The position numbers were made by a program, and so were the translations under genes. A DNA stretch of 40,320 nt from an uncultured Bacteroidota bacterium. GTDB taxonomy: Bacteria; Bacteroidota; Bacteroidia; Bacteroidales; WCHB1-69. Every line of letters starts with the position of its first letter. Position 1 is the stretch's first letter. The notes under the pieces are model-generated. The model was not told the origin of the DNA. It saw nothing but the letters and a program-made list of their open reading frames with translations, and ran no database searches. This document shows, piece by piece, positions 12,479 to 39,287 of the stretch. The stretch covers positions 1 to 40,320 of the forward strand of contig CACYHG010000015.1 of the NCBI GenBank assembly GCA_902774175.1, written 5' to 3'.

Positions 12479-13357
12479 TTATTTGTTCTGTTGCAGTTGC
12501 TTTTGGTAGTATGAAACCAGTCCTTCAATCGGATAGCGTACTATGCGTTCAATCCGGTAGCCTTCGTCCGCAAACACCTCCTGAAGAATCTCCCTCATAA
12601 GGAAGGCCACGGAGCCTACAAAGCAGATGGGGTAGCTTTCCGCTTCAGGAAAAGGCCGGATGTATTCCTGAACAAATTCTGTGAAGGATTGGCGTACGAT
12701 GTCATTCAAATCCTGAAATTCAAAAGCGTGGTCCAGAATGAAACGGGAGAATGGGGCAATGAAACGGTTGGGCTTATCCTGTTGGTAAATCCCGTTCAGT
12801 ATCTCCTCAAATGACAAATGGAAGTGTTCGTCTGTCGCACGTTTCAATTCCGGGGAGACCCTGTTTTTCAGGTATCGGGTCAGAAACAGCTTCCCGATAT
12901 GTATGCCGCTTCCCTCATCTCCAAGAAAGTAACCGAGGGAGATAGCGTTCCTGACTATGTTTTTTCCGTCATAAACGCATGAATTTGAACCCGTTCCAAG
13001 TATACAGGCTATCCCTTTATCCTCGCCACAGGCGGCTCTTGCGGAGGCCAGTACGTCATGGCTTGCGAAAATGGAAGCATTTGGGGATATCAGGGAAAGG
13101 GCGTCTTGGATCAGTGCAGCCTTCGACGGAGTGGAGCACCCGGATCCGTAAAAGCATATTTCACGGATATTTTCACGATCCAGCTGGGGGAGGGCAGGGA
13201 GCAGCTCCGTTTCCAGAATATGCCTGATTTCCTCCACGGACATGTAATACGGGTTGATACCATTTGTATTTATTTGTTTTTCAAGTCCGTTTTCGGACAC
13301 CAAAGCCCAATTGGTTGATGTGGAACCACTGTCTGCGGCCAATATAGTATTATGCAT
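12479..13357 (-). CDS. BadF/BadG/BcrA/BcrD-type ATPase, probable N-acetylglucosamine kinase-like sugar kinase
   Basis: 292 residues with the ASKHA (sugar kinase/actin) fold. PHOSPHATE 1 motif ADSGSTSTNWALV is at the N terminus, the GTGSN loop in CILGTGSNSCVYDGK is in the middle, and GDEGSG marks the N-acetylglucosamine kinase-like branch of the BadF family. The likely reaction is ATP-dependent phosphorylation of an amino sugar such as GlcNAc, possibly for cell-wall recycling; the lytic transglycosylase in the window fits that, but only loosely. It is the first gene of the minus-strand run with rpoN, uvrD and mgtC. Upstream, TAATTTCG (13422-13415 on the minus strand) is one base off a -7 box. 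The long regulatory region before the XRE gene is shared with it. Confidence 0.82.
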   Translation of the reverse strand: MHNTILAADSGSTSTNWALVSENGLEKQINTNGINPYYMSVEEIRHILETELLPALPQLDRENIREICFYGSGCSTPSKAALIQDALSLISPNASIFASHDVLASARAACGEDKGIACILGTGSNSCVYDGKNIVRNAISLGYFLGDEGSGIHIGKLFLTRYLKNRVSPELKRATDEHFHLSFEEILNGIYQQDKPNRFIAPFSRFILDHAFEFQDLNDIVRQSFTEFVQEYIRPFPEAESYPICFVGSVAFLMREILQEVFADEGYRIERIVRYPIEGLVSYYQKQLQQNK

Positions 13358-13470
13358 GATGTATTTCTTTAGTCTGTAATAATTCTATAACGACAATACA
13401 TTATAAATAATATGCGAAATTAGAAAAAATTTTTTCCATATAAAACGTACTCTAATCCCAACCCGATTAA

Positions 13471-13521
13471 TGTAAATTAGAGTGTAAATTTACATGTAAA
13501 CAGCAGTGTAAACCCTGTAAA
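13471..13521 (+). repeat. TGTAAA boxes at 12-base steps
   Basis: TGTAAA starts at 13471, 13483, 13495 and 13507, exactly 12 bases apart, then at 13516 (9 bases). The second unit with its neighbour forms a perfect palindrome TGTAAATTTACA (13483-13494). The same 12-base step recurs at 13867 and 13879 in the XRE leader. Phased short boxes of this kind are typical of cooperative binding sites; the binding protein is not shown. Confidence 0.65.
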
Positions 13522-13850
13522 CTACTACAATTTCAAGTTGTAAATTATTTGTAAATTGACAGGAAATTTACTTTAATTTACAATTAATCCGGCAACAAAC
13601 CGATTAAATTATATATAAATAACATTAAAACAATTTTTTATGTAGATTTACAGAAGTATTTATATAGATAGTTGTCCTATTTTTAAACGTGTTTACAAAT
13701 TTTGTTTTTATATACGTTAATATATTAAAAATAAATGATATATAGATAATGTTTATACCTATACTTTATATTATTTTGTAAATAATATGTTAATCGAGTA
13801 ATATTTTTAGGGAAATTTTTAATTTTTCCGGATGGTGTTTGAAAAAGTTG

Positions 13851-13902
13851 TACCTTTGCAAAAATATGTAAATGCAAGTGTAAATAACCAACTAATTGTA
13901 AA
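13851..13902 (+). promoter_or_regulatory. Promoter -7 box and TGTAAA-containing leader of the XRE gene
   Basis: TACCTTTG at 13851-13858 fits the TAnnTTTG -7 consensus; no good TTTG -33 box stands 19-21 bases upstream. The 20-mer 13841-13860 is identical in 19 positions to the secG promoter at 22857-22876. Between the presumed start of transcription and ATG 13911 lie three TGTAAA boxes (13867, 13879, 13897), a position suited to repression. Confidence 0.55.
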
Positions 13903-13910
13903 TAGGAACT

Positions 13911-14525
13911 ATGAAAGACCGTTTGAAGACATTGCTTCAGGAAATGGGTATGTCACAAGCAGAATTTGCTGACAGTATCGGTGTCGGACGTCCAAGTATC
14001 ACACATATTATGACTGGTCGTGACAAAACCAGCCAGACTGTGGTATCCAAGACCCTGCTTCGTTTCCCTGAAATTAACCCGATGTGGCTGCTTAAAGGTG
14101 AAGGTGAGATGTTTCGTCCTGGTGTCGGGAAAAATTTTTCTCAGAAAACTGAAAATGTTCCGGATATTGACGAATCAACTCAGGAGCCGCAAATAAAAGA
14201 GACACAAACCGAAATACAGACTTCCATGTTTCAGGATGATTCCGATGAAGGGAATGTTGCTGAAGTTCAAGAAATTCCGCAGCCAGAGGCGATTAAACCG
14301 ATGCCTGAACCTGTTACGCCCAAACCCGAAGTGCGCCAGCCGAGGCCTGTGCCTGTTGCGCCTGAACCCGAAGTGCGCCAGCCGAGGCCTGTGCCGCCCG
14401 TTGCGCCTAAGCCTGAGGAACTTTCAAAACCTGAAACTGCTGGGAAAATAGAGCGCAAGTTGCGTAAAATCGTCTTTTTCTATAGCGACCACTCGTTTGA
14501 GGAATATTTTCCTGGAGATTTGTAA
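13911..14525 (+). CDS. XRE-type helix-turn-helix protein with Pro-rich repeat linker and conserved C-terminal tail
   Basis: 204 residues. The N-terminal 65 form a lambda-repressor-like helix-turn-helix (MSQAEFADSIGVGRPSITHI). A long acidic then Pro/Val/Arg-rich linker follows, with a near-perfect tandem repeat of PEVRQPRPVP. The basic C-terminal tail KIERKLRKIVFFYSDHSFEE resembles a tail found in other Bacteroidales proteins of this type. There is no peptidase or ligand domain. It probably binds DNA, perhaps the TGTAAA boxes in front of its own start codon, which is inference. The last 46 bases overlap the convergent 236-residue gene. Its targets are unknown. Confidence 0.8.
   Translation: MKDRLKTLLQEMGMSQAEFADSIGVGRPSITHIMTGRDKTSQTVVSKTLLRFPEINPMWLLKGEGEMFRPGVGKNFSQKTENVPDIDESTQEPQIKETQTEIQTSMFQDDSDEGNVAEVQEIPQPEAIKPMPEPVTPKPEVRQPRPVPVAPEPEVRQPRPVPPVAPKPEELSKPETAGKIERKLRKIVFFYSDHSFEEYFPGDL
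14323..14395 (+). repeat. In-frame 31-base direct repeat in the XRE gene linker
   Basis: Bases 14323-14353 and 14365-14395 are identical (starting AACCCGAAGTGCGCC) and lie 42 bases apart, so each copy plus spacer encodes 14 residues centred on PEVRQPRPVP. Identity at the DNA level points to recent duplication, so the copy number may vary between strains. Confidence 0.85.
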
Positions 14526-15190
14526 ATCCTTTGCCTGATCTCCTGCTGGCAGATGCTAATCTGGTAGAACAGATGGTCGTTCTCCAGCTGGTTACCGGAG
14601 AGATAGCGGAATTGCAACCCTTCCATTTTCAGGATATGGTTCAGAAATGGAGTGATCCTGTCATAGTCTTCAAACTGGAATGGCATCAGATATCTGAATT
14701 GGCCCAACGGCACGGAATGGCGTGCCATGAATGCCGTCAGTTCGTTCCACCGCCTCAGGTCATCAGGATTGTTATGTTCATATTGTGGGTCTTCAACATC
14801 CAATGTGTCAGGAATATTTTCCTCCCCAAAAAGCGAAAGTTGGTTCGGCAGTGTCCTGCCCGAGTTCTTTATATGGTGGAGAGAGGCCGATTGGAAGGAG
14901 AGAAGCCTTGTTTTTCCATCTGTTGCAGTGTTTTTCAAGATAATGGGCAAGAATTTTTCGGGTCGTCTGGAATAATAGATTTCAAACGAACAATCGGCTT
15001 CGTTGAATTTGCTTGGAAATGCGTTCCTGAAACCCCAGTTCGTGGCGGCATACAGCATCCCCCACCATTCCTCATCCGGTTGCGCAGGTTGCAGGCAGAG
15101 CATGGCAAAAAGCGGCAGGTTCAATGAGGGGGAGGTGATGCGGATGGTTTGTGTTTCCGCCAATCCGAAAGCATTGCGTTTCTGTTTCAT
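14480..15190 (-). CDS. Hypothetical protein, unrecognised, coupled to the vWA gene
   Basis: 236 residues; I do not recognise the family. There is no signal peptide or membrane segment. The composition is that of a soluble globular protein, rich in aromatic residues (DEEWWGMLYAATNWGFRN, FRYLMPFQFEDYDRITPFL). The start ATG overlaps the vWA stop as ATGA (15187-15190), so it is probably translationally coupled and belongs with recJ and the vWA gene in one operon. The last 15 or so residues are antisense to the end of the XRE gene, whose C-terminal tail looks conserved, so the end of this protein is constrained by the opposite strand. With the vWA gene broken, its partner may be lost. Confidence 0.6.
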   Translation of the reverse strand: MKQKRNAFGLAETQTIRITSPSLNLPLFAMLCLQPAQPDEEWWGMLYAATNWGFRNAFPSKFNEADCSFEIYYSRRPEKFLPIILKNTATDGKTRLLSFQSASLHHIKNSGRTLPNQLSLFGEENIPDTLDVEDPQYEHNNPDDLRRWNELTAFMARHSVPLGQFRYLMPFQFEDYDRITPFLNHILKMEGLQFRYLSGNQLENDHLFYQISICQQEIRQRIYKSPGKYSSNEWSL

Positions 15191-16581
15191 GGCTGCTTGG
15201 GGATTTGGACCGTGGTGGTCATGTTGGAGCGGATAACGAAGGTCTGGCTGAGTGTTTCCACTGTCCGGTTGGATTCTCTTGCGCGGAACACAAGGGTATA
15301 GGTGCCGGGCTGCAGCAGGATCGATTCCTGGATGTCATCATCACGAAGATTATATACCCATTCCAGCTGTTGGCCTCGCATCACGTACAAGCTGCCTGTT
15401 CCCAACCTGTTTTTCTGCACGATGGCTGTTCCGGGAGCCGGTATCTTTATCTGTGTGGTTGTGCTTTGGCTGATTTTAACTTGTGGGATGATCAGCCGTG
15501 GCATGCAGAGAATTTCCAGGTCATATTTTCCGACAAGGTATTTGTCAACCATGTCGAAATACTGCACATTGATGGTTTGGCACGAATCAGCCTGTCTGAC
15601 AATAATTGGAATTTGCCTGTAACGGTCGCTTTGTCCGGATACGACCTTCACCTGCAGGCTGCCTTGCGGAGTCTGAATCGGAATGATGTTGTGGCGGCCC
15701 GGTGTCAGCTTGATTGAATCCACTGAAACCGGAGGCAGGGTGTGCACGGTGATTTTGTATTCGGGCATCGGATTAATCAGCAGTGTGTCCGGCAGTCCGC
15801 GGGTGTTCATCGTGTGGATCAGGTTGTAACGTATCTTGTGGCTGTAGCTGTCCTCAAAGGTCATGTTCACATTGGTCTCCGTAGGTTTGCCGGACTGGTC
15901 AAGCAGGCTCACCTGGCAGGTGGTCGGATGGAAAATCTGGTCGATGATTACATGCAGGGCATTGTCAAAATCGGCTTCGCCGGAAGCGTCAATGTAGTTG
16001 CCGATGCAGCGCAGGTCTGATTCGAAATTGCCACCGATACCGATAATGAATGGCTTGAGGATTATTCCTTAGCGTTGGAGCGCGTGGGAGACGGCGCATG
16101 GGTCGCCCGAACACTCCTCAATACCGTCGGTGATGAGCACCACCACGTTCCGGATGTTGCCGGTTGCGGGCGGAAAATCCTTTTCACAGGCCAGCAGAGA
16201 CTGTGCGATTGGGGTCGTGCCCTTGGGATACAATGTTTTCAGTTTCTGTTTTACGCGTGGGAAATTGTTGTATGAGAAGGGAACTTCCAATTTGGTGTCG
16301 TTGCAGTCATGCAGTTTGCTGTCCGCCTGATGACCGTACACGCGCAGGGCAATCTGCACGTCCGGATAGCTCTCAAGGGAATCCACCATCTTCGAGAGCA
16401 GCCTGTTGGCGATATGTATTTTCTTGTCGCTCTGCCATTCGCCCCACATGCTGTTTGAGGCGTCGAAGATGAACAGTATGCGTGTCAGCGCCGGCTGGTT
16501 GCGGTTACCGGTGTTCTGGCAGTTTCCCGAAAGGGGGAGCCACAGGCAGCAAAAAAGCAGGAACCAACGGCAGGCTTTCAT
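15187..16581 (-). pseudogene. von Willebrand factor A domain protein interrupted by one in-frame TAA
   Basis: Two open segments in the same frame, 170 codons then 293 more, are separated only by TAA at 16071-16069. The first has an export signal (CRWFLLFCCLWLPLSG) and a vWA domain with MIDAS residues D40, S42, S44 (DASNS), GTTP and ITDG. It stops in the last part of the domain. Reading through, the domain continues naturally with GIILKPFIIGIGGNF, then a beta-rich C-terminal region (about 290-460) with repeated ligand-like strands. Nothing else is damaged, and no ATG restarts near the break. A single base change from AAA, CAA or GAA explains it. Either a fresh pseudogene, a sequencing error or stop readthrough. 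It starts 3 bases after the recJ stop. The intact protein would act in the periplasm, probably in metal-dependent adhesion or complex assembly. Confidence 0.8.
16069..16071 (-). other. In-frame premature stop codon in the vWA gene
   Basis: On the minus strand the codons read CTC CAA CGC TAA GGA ATA ATC CTC AAG. TAA is used as a normal stop elsewhere in the window (for example recJ and mrp), so code reassignment is excluded. Confidence 0.85.
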
Positions 16582-33919: not shown

Positions 33920-34488
33920 AAAAGGGAATAGTAGTATGTGTATTGGCCGGCCTTTTGCTGGTATCATGCGATGCGCTGCAGCAGCTCACGCAGCTTACAA
34001 ATGTCAAAAACTGCACATTTGAATTGGACAAGGTTGAAAGCGTCCAGGTTGCAGGGATCAATGTGATGAACTTGAGCGGTTTTTCCGCAATCGATCTGGT
34101 CAATCTGGCTGCCTGCATCAAGGCGAAGAAGGTGCCCGTTTCACTGGGTGTGCGCGTCGGGGTGGCGAACCCTGGAGCCAGTGCGGCCACTGTCACACGT
34201 ATGGACTGGCTCTGCACCGTGGACAACAAGCAGATGGCCACCGGTGTGATTTCCGACCGCTATTCGGTTCCGGCCGGCGGTTCCGTCTCCATTCCCTTGA
34301 AGGTTAACATGGACGCCTACGATCTGTTCTCCTCTTCCGGTGTGGATGCCATCAAGGCGTTCATCAACAGTTTCTCAAAGGAGGACCATACCTCTTCAAG
34401 GGTGGCGGTCAAGGTCAAGCCGACTGTGGAATTGGGTTCGACAACTGTCACGATGCCGAATTATATTACATTGATTTCAAATAAGTGA
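33916..34488 (+). CDS. LEA type 2/WHy-domain-like lipoprotein
   Basis: 190 residues. A lipoprotein signal peptide with lipobox LLVSC (Cys18) is followed by a helix, then an immunoglobulin-like beta sandwich of the LEA-2/WHy type: VSLGVRVGVANPGASAATV, SVPAGGSVSIPLKVNMDAYD, and repeated alternating strands. Proteins of this fold are linked to stress and desiccation in plants and to envelope functions in bacteria; no specific role can be given. It is translationally coupled to the zinc-ribbon gene and 3 bases before gpsA. Confidence 0.7.
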   Translation: MKKGIVVCVLAGLLLVSCDALQQLTQLTNVKNCTFELDKVESVQVAGINVMNLSGFSAIDLVNLAACIKAKKVPVSLGVRVGVANPGASAATVTRMDWLCTVDNKQMATGVISDRYSVPAGGSVSIPLKVNMDAYDLFSSSGVDAIKAFINSFSKEDHTSSRVAVKVKPTVELGSTTVTMPNYITLISNK

Positions 34489-34491
34489 CCC

Positions 34492-35529
34492 ATGCCATTT
34501 GTATTTGAATCGATAAAAGCGGTCACGCGGCCTGATTACAAAGTCGCCGTTTTGGGAGGGGGCAGTTGGGCAACTGCCATAGTGAAAATCCTCTCCTCAA
34601 ATCTGAAATATGTATATTGGTGGGTGCGGGAGCCGGAAATTGTTGAGGGCATCCGCACATTAGGACATAACCCGATCTATCTGAATGAGGCGCAGCTCAA
34701 CAGCAAACGCATCCGGATTTCCAACAACATGAAGCATGTTGTGAAAAAGGCCGACCTGATAGTGCTGGTTATTCCCTCCGCATTCATTTGCGATTCCCTG
34801 TCCGTGCTGCCAGAGAACGCCTTTGAGGGCAAATATGTCATTTCCGCAACCAAGGGTCTGATTCAGCAGCCGCGGTTACAGATTTCCCTTTTCATGCACC
34901 GTTATTTTGGCGTGCCGGAAGACCGTCTCGGCCTTATCATGGGTCCTTCCCACGCGGAGGAGATTGCCCGTGAGCGGCTTACCTACCTGACGTCGGCCTC
35001 CTGCAATCCCAAGCTGGCTGAAGATGTCGCCAACCTGTTCCGCAACCGCTACGTGGTGACAACCCTATCCGATGACATGCGCGGTATCGAGACCTGCGTG
35101 ATCCTGAAAAACATCTATGCACTTGCAGCGGGCATTTTCCGCGGTTTGGGTGCCGGAGACAACCTGCTTGCCGTCTTCAACGCGAACTGCTATAACGAGA
35201 TGGTGACCATCACCCAGATGCTTCATCCGATGGAGGACCGCAAATATGCCCTTTCACCATATCTTGGCGACTTCCTTGTGACAACCTATTCCCAATACAG
35301 CCGCAACCGCAATTTCGGCTACATGGTGGGGAAGGGCTATTCCGTGCAAACCATCCTGATGGAGATGAAAATGGTGGCCGAGGGCTATTCGGCAGTTTCA
35401 AGCGTTTACCATTTCAATCAGGAGCAGCTTCATGCCGATCTCCCCATACTTACAACCACCTATAAGATTCTTTATGAGAAGGCGCCTGTGAGAACCAGCA
35501 TCCACCGCCTTTTGGACCAATTGAAATAA
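34492..35529 (+). CDS. gpsA: NAD(P)-dependent glycerol-3-phosphate dehydrogenase
   Basis: 345 residues. Nucleotide-binding motif VAVLGGGSWATAIVKIL, then LVIPSAFICDSL, SATKGLI, the family stretch GPSHAEEIARERLTYLT and the catalytic-lysine helix LKNIYALAAGIFRGLGAGDN. It reduces dihydroxyacetone phosphate to sn-glycerol-3-phosphate, the start of phospholipid synthesis. The N-terminal 15 residues before the Rossmann fold fit a short extension. It follows the LEA-type gene after 3 bases and precedes the DUF3078 gene by 25, so one transcript is likely. Confidence 0.95.
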   Translation: MPFVFESIKAVTRPDYKVAVLGGGSWATAIVKILSSNLKYVYWWVREPEIVEGIRTLGHNPIYLNEAQLNSKRIRISNNMKHVVKKADLIVLVIPSAFICDSLSVLPENAFEGKYVISATKGLIQQPRLQISLFMHRYFGVPEDRLGLIMGPSHAEEIARERLTYLTSASCNPKLAEDVANLFRNRYVVTTLSDDMRGIETCVILKNIYALAAGIFRGLGAGDNLLAVFNANCYNEMVTITQMLHPMEDRKYALSPYLGDFLVTTYSQYSRNRNFGYMVGKGYSVQTILMEMKMVAEGYSAVSSVYHFNQEQLHADLPILTTTYKILYEKAPVRTSIHRLLDQLK

Positions 35530-35554
35530 TGTAAAAAGTAAAAAATAAGATATC

Positions 35555-36538
35555 ATGAAACAGAAGTTTTTTTTGCTTATCGGAATCCTCTGCTGTGTGA
35601 ATTCCATCCTGACGGCGCAGGAAATAAAGGACCTGGCCATCAAATCCTATGAAAAGAGCACAAAGGCGGACACCACTGTCAAGGAGAGTTACTGGTCCTA
35701 TGGCGGTATCACACTCCTGACCTTTTCGCAGGACTATACGTTGAACTGGGCTGCCGGTGGTGACCCCGCCCTCAGTCTGAAGGGAACCGGCAACTATTTC
35801 CTCAAATACAGCAAGCAGCGTCTCACATGGGACAACACCCTGAATTTTGACTATGGCATGCAGCGGAATCTGGAGACCAAGGTCAACACCAAGACCACCG
35901 ACAATCTGGAACTGGCCTCAAATCTCGGTTATCTGTTGGGCGGTCATTGGAACGGCGCCGCCTTAGTGAAGATGCAGACCCAGATTTCGGACGGCTACAC
36001 CAACGACAAGGTGACTTCGGCCTTCATGACCCCTGCATATCTGATCACCTCAATCGGTTTGGACTACAAGCAGAAAGACTGGTCAATATTTGTCTCCCCG
36101 ATTACCGGAAAAACAACATTCAAACTTGACGGGCGTTTCTTTGACGGCAATTACTTCGCGGTCGATTCAGGACTGACCCATCATTTTTCGTTCGGTGGAT
36201 TCGCACGCTTCACAATCAACAAGGACATTACGCCGACAATAAATCTCTATTCAAAACTGGAACTCTTCTCCGATTATCTGAACCAGCCGGAAAAGGTGGA
36301 TGTCAATTTTGAGATCCGCTGGCTCTTCAAGATGACGGAATGGCTCTCATTCAGCATTTATGCGGCAGCCATATACGATTATGATGTCAGGTTCCAGGTC
36401 TACGAGGCGGATGGCGTGACCCCATGTGTGCGCGCCGATGGCACCAAGGTCACCACCGACCACCTGCAGTTCAAGGAGAATTTCGGCCTGACCCTCACCA
36501 GCAAATTCCTGCACAAGTCGGGTTCCAGCAAGCGTTAA
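35555..36538 (+). CDS. DUF3078 outer-membrane beta-barrel-like protein
   Basis: 327 residues with a signal peptide (MKQKFFLLIGILCCVNSILT, cleaved near AQ). The rest consists of alternating beta strands rich in aromatic residues (WSYGGITLLTFSQDYTLNWA, LTWDNTLNFDYGMQRN, IGLDYKQKDWSIFVSPITGK) and ends in a strand before SSKR. It matches the DUF3078 family, known from Bacteroidota only by prediction and thought to lie in the outer membrane. No function is established. It is followed by a 63-residue lipoprotein 6 bases later. Confidence 0.85.
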   Translation: MKQKFFLLIGILCCVNSILTAQEIKDLAIKSYEKSTKADTTVKESYWSYGGITLLTFSQDYTLNWAAGGDPALSLKGTGNYFLKYSKQRLTWDNTLNFDYGMQRNLETKVNTKTTDNLELASNLGYLLGGHWNGAALVKMQTQISDGYTNDKVTSAFMTPAYLITSIGLDYKQKDWSIFVSPITGKTTFKLDGRFFDGNYFAVDSGLTHHFSFGGFARFTINKDITPTINLYSKLELFSDYLNQPEKVDVNFEIRWLFKMTEWLSFSIYAAAIYDYDVRFQVYEADGVTPCVRADGTKVTTDHLQFKENFGLTLTSKFLHKSGSSKR

Positions 36539-36544
36539 CCGGCC

Positions 36545-36736
36545 ATGTGCAACAAATGGATCAAACTGTCCGTGTTTTTCGTTCTGATGATTGCTGTCGT
36601 CGGATTGCAGGGGTGTTCCTCCTCCCGTAAGACAACAACATATCCCAAACGGAGGCACAAGTGCAACTGCCCCCATTTTTCATATTCGGACGTTGTGAAG
36701 GACAGTACATGTGTCATTTCAATATCTACACTATGA
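36545..36736 (+). CDS. Small Cys-containing lipoprotein
   Basis: 63 residues. The signal peptide ends in a lipobox LQGC (Cys24), then a Ser/Arg/Lys-rich stretch (SSRKTTTYPKRRHK) and the short motif CNCPHFS. Similar tiny lipoproteins with a basic stretch and a CxCP motif are annotated in other Bacteroidales, which supports a real gene despite its size. The ATGA overlap with manC (36733-36736) and the 6-base gap from the DUF3078 gene also support it. The function is unknown; the Cys pair could bind metal or form a disulfide. Confidence 0.75.
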   Translation: MCNKWIKLSVFFVLMIAVVGLQGCSSSRKTTTYPKRRHKCNCPHFSYSDVVKDSTCVISISTL

Positions 36737-37827
36737 ACAGCAACAATTTTTGCGTGATAATGGCCGGCGGCGCCGGCACCCGTTTCTGGCCTGTCAGCCG
36801 GAATGCCTTCCCGAAACAGTTCATTGATTTTCTCGGCACGGGAAAGTCCCTGCTCCAGATGACGGTGCAGCGATTCCTGCCCGTTGTGCCGATGGAGAAC
36901 ATCTATATCGTCACCAACGAGACATACAGCGACCTTGTGAGGGAGCAGTTGCCGGAACTTGATGCGGGGCAGATTCTGCTTGAGCCTTTCCGCCGTAATA
37001 CCGCCCCTTGCATCGCTTACGCCAATTATAAGATTAAACAGCGCAATCCGGAAGCCAACATTATCGTTGCCCCGTCGGATCATCTGATTCCTGACGAACA
37101 GCTTTTCAACGAGCATATAGCCTCCGCTCTTGCCTGTGCGGAAAACAACTCATGGCTGCTGACACTGGGCATACATCCCACACGTCCGGAAACGGGCTAC
37201 GGATACATCCAGTATGACAACACCAACCGGTACATGCCGGATCCGCGCATTTCCAAAGTCCGGATATTCACTGAAAAACCTCAGTTGGAACTTGCAAAGC
37301 AATTTTTGGAGAGCGGCGATTTCCTGTGGAATGCCGGCATATTTGTCTGGAAGCTGCCTACCATTATGAAGGCGTTTGAACAGCATCTTCCCGCCATCGA
37401 CCAGCTTTTCCAAAGCGTGGAGCAGGATTTGGGGACGGAACGGGAACAGGCCTCAATCCGTCGCATCTATGAGGAATGCACCGCAATCTCAATAGACTAT
37501 GGCATAATGGAAAAGGCTGAGAATGTCAGTGTGCTCGCCTCCAATTTCGCCTGGTCCGATTTGGGCACATGGACCGCGCTGTACGAGCAGATGAAACAGC
37601 CGGATCAGAAAAATGCCCTGGTGGAGCCGACCAACATATTCACCTACAATACCACCAACTGCATCATTACCGCGCCCAAGGAGACTGTGGTGGTGACGGA
37701 GGGATTGGATGACTACGTGGTTGCAGTGACCGACAACGCCGTGCTTGTCTGCCGGAAGTCAGAAGAGCAGAACATCCGTCAGTTTGTGGCGGATGTGCAG
37801 ATATCCAAAGGGGAAAAGTTTGTATAG
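36733..37827 (+). CDS. manC: Mannose-1-phosphate guanylyltransferase (GDP-mannose pyrophosphorylase)
   Basis: 364 residues from ATG 36733, where homology begins ([19 protein letters not shown]). A GTG at 36661 in the same frame would add 24 residues antisense-like to nothing known and overlap the lipoprotein. Motifs: the nucleotidyltransferase signature [37 protein letters not shown] and [12 protein letters not shown]. It makes GDP-mannose from mannose-1-phosphate and GTP for glycans and capsule. The enzyme lacks the C-terminal phosphomannose isomerase domain of the bifunctional type. Translation is coupled to the small lipoprotein gene. Confidence 0.93.
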
Positions 37828-37832
37828 GCGTC

Positions 37833-39287
37833 ATGGAGGAAAAACAGATGGACATACGGTCGGTTGCCGACGAGAACTACAAATACGGTTTCACCAGCGA
37901 TATAGACACCGAATATTTTCCCAAAGGGATAAGCGAGGAAATTATCCGGCGTATCTCCGAATACAAGCAGGAGCCCGAATGGCTTCTTGATTTCCGGCTG
38001 GAGGCGTACAGGAAGTGGCAGCGCATGAAGGAGCCTACATGGGCGCATCTGCATTATCCTCCAATCAATTATGATGATATAATCTATTTTGCCGTTCCGC
38101 GAAAGAAAAAAAAGCTGGACAGCATGGACGAGGTGGATCCCAAACTTCGGGAAATGTTCGACAAGTTGGGCATTTCGCTTGAAGAGCAGAAACGGCTTGC
38201 CAATGTGAGCGAGGTGGCGGTGGATGCCGTGGTGGATTCGGAATCGGTGAAAACAACCTATCAGGAGACGCTCCGCAAACAGGGCATCATATTCTGCTCC
38301 TTCGGCGAGGCGGTACGCGAACATCCCGAACTTGTCCGGGAATATTTGGGCAAGGCTGTGCCATCCGGAGACAACTTTTTCGCCGCACTCAATTCTGCGG
38401 TCTTCAGCGACGGCTCCTTCTGCTACATCCCGAAAGGGGTGCGCTGTCCCATAGAACTCTCCACCTATTTCCGCATCAACGCAATGAACACCGGCCAGTT
38501 CGAGCGCACGCTGATCATTGCCGACGATGATGCGTATGTCAGTTACATGGAGGGCTGCACCGCCCCGCAGCGTGACGAGAACCAATTACATGCCGCAGTT
38601 GTTGAAATATTCGCCAAGGATCGTGCGGAAGTGAAGTACTCCACAGTGCAGAACTGGTATCCGGGCGACAAGGATGGCAAGGGCGGCATATATAATTTCG
38701 TCACCAAACGCGGCATTTGCGAGGGGTTCCGCTCCAAGATATCCTGGACCCAGGTGGAGACCGGCTCAGCCGTCACATGGAAATATCCGGGCTGCGTGCT
38801 CAAGGGCGACGAGTCGGTCGGGGAGTTCTACTCCGTCGCGCTTACCAACAACTACCAGCAGGCGGATACCGGCACCAAGATGATCCATCTCGGTCGTGAC
38901 ACCCGCAGCACCATCATTTCAAAGGGCATTTCTGCCGGACACAGCGAAAACAGCTACCGCGGCCTTGTGCATATCGGCAAAAACGCACAGCGTGCCAGAA
39001 ACTATTCCCAGTGCGATTCGCTGCTGCTTGGCGACCTGTGCGGCGCCCACACATGGCCCTTCATCGAATGCCAGAACGAGACTGCCATTCTGGAGCATGA
39101 GGCCTCCACCTCGAAGATTTCGGAGGAGCAGCTGTTCTACTGCCAGCAGCGCGGCATCAGTCAGGAAAATGCAATCGGATTGATTGTGAACGGATACGCA
39201 AAGGAGGTGCTGAAACGCCTTCCCATGGAATTTGCCGTGGAGGCGCAGCGGCTGCTGTCTGTCTCACTTGAAGTTAAAAACGGATAA
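37833..39287 (+). CDS. sufB: Fe-S cluster assembly scaffold protein SufB
   Basis: 484 residues, the normal length. Signatures: [84 protein letters not shown], and [20 protein letters not shown] near the C-terminal core. SufB forms the SufBC2D scaffold that builds Fe-S clusters. It follows manC after 5 bases and hisS starts 12 bases later. sufC, sufD and sufS do not follow, so sufB is separated from its usual partners here. Mrp (3011-4081) acts downstream in the same process. Confidence 0.96.

Follow-up and report, generated by a model that had tools for sequence, protein, structure and literature searches.

The array of TGTAAA boxes that precedes an XRE-type regulator gene in the window (the 40,320-nucleotide stretch of DNA from an uncultured Bacteroidota bacterium analysed here) is best explained as the operator region through which an XRE protein found across Bacteroidales represses its own gene, with probably cooperative binding, possible looping of the DNA and, in relatives, a location near the replication terminus. 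We put the probability of this reading at about three in four. Comparison among orthologs shows conserved boxes, a dyad form of the putative site, and a proximal and a distal cluster, all tied to the XRE gene. The autoregulation is ordinary in its logic; it is set in an unusually long, order-wide operator region, and the association of this region with the replication terminus is unexpected.

The box array and its conservation

The boxes lie in a 553-base gap (13358-13910, 22% GC) between the XRE gene, which encodes 204 amino acids on the plus strand (13911-14525), and a divergent, minus-strand gene for a BadF/BadG-like ATPase (kinase; 12479-13357). All eleven plus-strand TGTAAA and all four TTTACA reported in a first-pass annotation of this DNA are present. 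A distal cluster (13471-13582, plus strand) holds TGTAAA at 13471, 13483, 13495 and 13507, which follow one another at exact 12-base steps, and at 13516, 13539 and 13550, together with TTTACA at 13489 and 13577; it includes the palindrome TGTAAATTTACA at 13483-13494. There follows an AT-rich spacer (13583-13850) with few boxes (TTTACA at 13647 and 13692, TGTAAA at 13777), a segment that is site-poor in relatives too. Judging by its sequence, TACCTTTG (13851-13858, plus strand) is the probable -7 promoter element of the XRE gene; it is of the TAnnTTTG type, which is the -7 promoter type of Bacteroidota. Three further TGTAAA (13867, 13879 and 13897) form the proximal cluster (13867-13902, plus strand), located between the promoter and the start codon in the probable 5' leader and kept in relatives.

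In 5,000 dinucleotide-preserving shuffles of the intergenic sequence 13358-13910, the mean number of boxes was 1.7 (s.d. 1.3, maximum 7), compared with 15 in the native sequence. The richest other 553-base stretch of the window holds 3 boxes, and elsewhere in the draft genome to which the window belongs three closely spaced boxes occur in one place only, on contig C32. This three-box cluster (C32:8304; L003:1501-1550) is a simple 12-base tandem repeat, GCGATTGTAAAT, and not an array of the XRE type; our impression is that the adjoining gene resembles a REP-type transposase. An RNA element was also considered and rejected: Rfam gave no match above a gathering score, and a weak match to CRISPR-DR50 (23.9 of 47 bits) was taken as chance.

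The upstream regions of 62 orthologs from 27 families (28 from the sample of the window's own family and 34 more) were set to one orientation and compared. TGTAAA/TTTACA was the top-enriched hexamer (380 observed, 96 expected), and 60 of the 62 regions were individually enriched in boxes (p<0.05) in a test for which the motif had been picked beforehand from the same 62-region data; enrichment was not significant in L022 and G109. Across the order, the form of the site is the dyad TTACAnnTGTAA, an inverted repeat TTACA-N2-TGTAA with 49 occurrences where shuffled sequence gives 0.3. In relatives one cluster typically lies at the promoter and leader and another some 350-500 bases upstream of the start codon, with fewer sites between them; in 60 of the 62 regions, TAnnTTTG lies no more than 200 bases from the start codon. 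Conserved candidate operator sites at the gene's own promoter, a defining trait of autoregulating XRE proteins, are thus found here. A genome has only 4-13 perfect dyads, and the gene's own promoter region is the densest place for sites in G226, G253 and G306; the arrays of some other relatives are weak (G322, G278 and G176). A k-mer search for a conserved element in the AT-rich spacer gave weak signals only, such as TAAAGTAT and AATCAG. Counting three-box clusters across the family gave unusable numbers, because simple repeats polluted them. Two genomes of the family, G013 and G045, carry many scattered short tandem repeats (e.g., TGTAAATTGTAAA and TGTAAAGTTTGTAAA), a simple-repeat class that is unrelated to the XRE array.

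The window's clade differs from the rest of its family in the arrangement of the boxes. Among its 12 regions dyads are rare and boxes are many (median 12), and boxes on the gene strand outnumber those on the opposite strand by 108 to 34, compared with 45 to 41 in the rest of the family. Twelve bases is the commonest same-strand step in these regions (14 in the 12 regions, followed by steps of 11 and 9); this step is a trait of the window's clade and does not prevail elsewhere in the order. Given the rare dyads, the mostly one-directional boxes and the commonest step of 12 bases, the phasing appears to have been elaborated within this clade from an older dyad operator.

A gene for the BadF kinase is the divergent neighbour in 11 of 30 family loci and in 11 of the 12 regions of the window's clade. 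The first-pass annotation had suggested that the array perhaps controls this kinase in addition to the XRE gene; this is possible in the window's clade, where the kinase is divergent, but the suggestion does not carry over to other lineages, where the boxes are kept with other neighbours. The persistence of the boxes where another gene takes the place of BadF assigns them to the XRE gene. The annotation's principal proposal, that the XRE protein regulates its own gene, is well supported by this comparison, in which the boxes track the putative autoregulator through all 27 sampled families whatever gene lies opposite. It had also held that boxes unconserved in relatives, or no more frequent than chance allows, would speak against regulation; the boxes are both conserved and enriched.

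The XRE protein and its proposed mode of action

Relatives of the XRE protein were found in 43 of the 59 genomes of the family and in 273 of the 295 genomes of Bacteroidales, and the gene is therefore near-universal in the order. The protein is a member of the HTH_3 family (33.5 bits against a curated Pfam cut-off of 23), and helix-turn-helix (HTH) models are its sole Pfam matches, with no homology to Tus or RTP among them. AlphaFold modelling from 64 sequences predicted, with confidence, an HTH domain at about residues 1-70 and a C-terminal beta-hairpin at about residues 184-203, joined by a low-confidence linker that is probably disordered. The hairpin motif, KIVFFYxDxTFEEYxP, is well conserved among orthologs. 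The top fold match was 434 Cro. Solved structures and NCBIfam returned only generic HTH relatives, and the family is not named by any NCBIfam model that passes its cut-off.

These features suggest how the array might operate. XRE dimers would bind the boxes through the 434-Cro-like HTH domain, probably cooperatively along the array, and filled proximal sites would obstruct RNA polymerase at the TAnnTTTG promoter and in the leader. Bound protein may in addition bridge the two clusters, about 300 bases apart, into a loop, aided by the C-terminal hairpins; looping and hairpin-driven oligomerisation are suggested by the layout of the sites and by structure prediction, and may occur. The level of the XRE protein, or of its complex with DNA, might be coupled to the completion of chromosome replication or to the way in which the terminus region is segregated.

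The closest likeness is to the autoregulating proteins of the XRE/434-Cro type (434 Cro and repressor, the controller proteins C.AhdI and C.BclI, and SinR), with which the XRE protein has in common the HTH fold, small dyad operators at its own promoter and, probably, a dimeric form. Unlike these proteins, it has a long disordered linker and a conserved C-terminal hairpin; its operator region spans about 450 bases and is split into two clusters, and its gene is kept order-wide in the chromosome near dif.

Position of the XRE gene near the replication terminus

Cumulative skew was sampled by 20-kb stretches in single-contig relatives. The XRE ortholog lies at or near the skew maximum, where the skew switches from plus to minus, in G253, G226, G322, G278 and G306; in G176 it lies about 0.2-0.4 Mb beyond that maximum. 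When scored against the known dif sites listed in PMC3025954, G226 and G322 proved to have clear dif sites near the XRE gene. A search with the dif core TATAATTTATATTATGTTAA then gave 47 genomes with dif and the XRE gene on one contig, in which the distance between them is 0.2-153 kb (median 19 kb; at most 50 kb in 41 of the 47) and the XRE gene is oriented toward dif in 44. The one-contig requirement shortens these distances, so genomes of at most 10 contigs were taken separately: in all 12 of them the distance is at most 82 kb (combined p ~2e-14 under a uniform null), a subset that leaves out the near-complete genomes without a clear dif (G176, G253, G334, G342, G348, G136, G140 and G300). 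The association between the XRE gene and dif is strong, although not universal. Among members of the window's own family, the ortholog lies 8-26 kb from dif in five.

The window comprises the whole of its contig (C15), and the clear dif core of the same genome is on a separate contig, at C52:7155 (L199:1501-1520). This core adjoins genes resembling aroC, sufE and queA; queA is also next to the XRE gene in G226, G253 and G322. GC skew in the window is positive to about 34 kb, with the XRE gene on the positive-skew strand, and then briefly negative (34001-38000), a pattern that is compatible with a terminus-type placement of the gene but weak. From the turn near 34 kb, a weak signal, the terminus might lie past the right end of the contig. 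A dif site within the array was also considered and rejected: the best dif-like score in the window, 14.0 at 13393, compares with 23-27 for clear sites, and in relatives dif is located at the distances given above.

Neighbouring genes and known terminus systems

Another possible, but less likely, reading treats the XRE protein as an ordinary self-controlled regulator with few targets (pyrKD or, in the window's clade, the BadF kinase), whose gene owes its place near the terminus to dosage or to an inherited gene order. Six 20-kb stretches around the gene, from six families, have only the XRE gene and a dihydroorotate dehydrogenase (DHODH) gene in common, and the XRE gene directly precedes pyrD or pyrKD (within 3.5 kb) in 18 of the 42 genomes tabulated, with two unrelated DHODH types represented. 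The divergent BadF gene of the window's family fits this reading as well. So does rpoN, a near neighbour in the window: in five closed relatives its distance from dif is 1.4-2.3 Mb, and because it too holds a fairly constant position, genes in general may keep their place on the origin-terminus axis. However, neighbours vary while the XRE gene and its array persist. Specifically, pyrD is elsewhere in the other 24 of the 42 genomes (e.g., at a distance of 0.4 Mb in both G243 and G131, and of 1.4 Mb in G200), and in these the XRE gene is still a median of 21 kb from dif; pyrD alone therefore does not explain its place.

Several observations were made on the genes 3' of the XRE gene. In relatives, the DHODH is encoded immediately after it either by a gene of about 350 amino acids (class-2-like) or by a PyrK-like gene followed by a DHODH gene of about 300 amino acids (class-1B-like), at L101:8324-9388, L150:8541-9584, L128:10332-12016, L163:6340-8033 and L181:9532-11210. 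The type of DHODH has been exchanged while the slot beside the XRE gene stayed. In the window, two opposite-strand open reading frames without Pfam match (14480-15190 and 15187-15912) lie 3' of the XRE gene, with counterparts in the same-genus genome G026.

A role in termination itself may also be envisaged. We consider it unlikely that the XRE gene and array form a Bacteroidales-wide terminus system, in which XRE protein on the array would mark, anchor or slow replication, or duplication of the array would dilute the repressor and time its expression to the completion of replication. The terminus position could be explained by a structural role and equally by one in dosage or replication completion.

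More doubtful is a fork barrier or anchor near dif, formed by XRE protein on the array in the manner of RTP/ter of Bacillus subtilis or Tus/ter of Escherichia coli, with autoregulation secondary. In those systems, too, the gene of a DNA-binding protein lies at the terminus with its own sites in the promoter, as the XRE gene does in relatives, and a ter site there mediates the autoregulation of both tus and rtp (PMC10331603). The orientation of the XRE gene toward dif, its persistence near dif where pyrD is elsewhere, and the asymmetric, mostly one-directional boxes of the window's clade would fit such a barrier. In contrast, the XRE fold (HTH_3) is unrelated to those of RTP and Tus, the site found across the order is a symmetric dyad, unlike the non-palindromic ter sites (PMC6549158), and a single array was seen on one side of dif, with no opposing sets of sites on its two sides. 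MatP/matS of Enterobacteria and Vibrio offers a further likeness, a sequence-specific protein at the terminus region, but MatP belongs to a different protein family, and perfect dyads in the six genomes searched showed no matS-like dispersal around the terminus. With neither opposing arrays nor dispersed sites, the XRE protein is not classed as a fork trap, and its parallel with Tus and RTP appears partial.

An iteron-type origin or plasmid-like partition site, which the first-pass annotation had offered as its second option, is highly improbable: short repeats do adjoin AT-rich DNA and a DNA-binding-protein gene, but the skew has neither a minimum nor a sign switch at the array, the boxes themselves, with one mismatch, account for all DnaA-like matches there, the gene is near-universal in the order, and in relatives it lies at the skew maximum near dif.

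Autoregulation of the XRE gene through its own boxes is thus the reading that we favour, and what is new here is that in relatives this gene is linked to the replication terminus, not to the origin. At a minimum, the XRE boxes define a new operator family. A near-universal small gene whose operators and dif-side position are both conserved is, in addition, a testable candidate for a link, in a dominant gut lineage, between gene control and the completion of replication.
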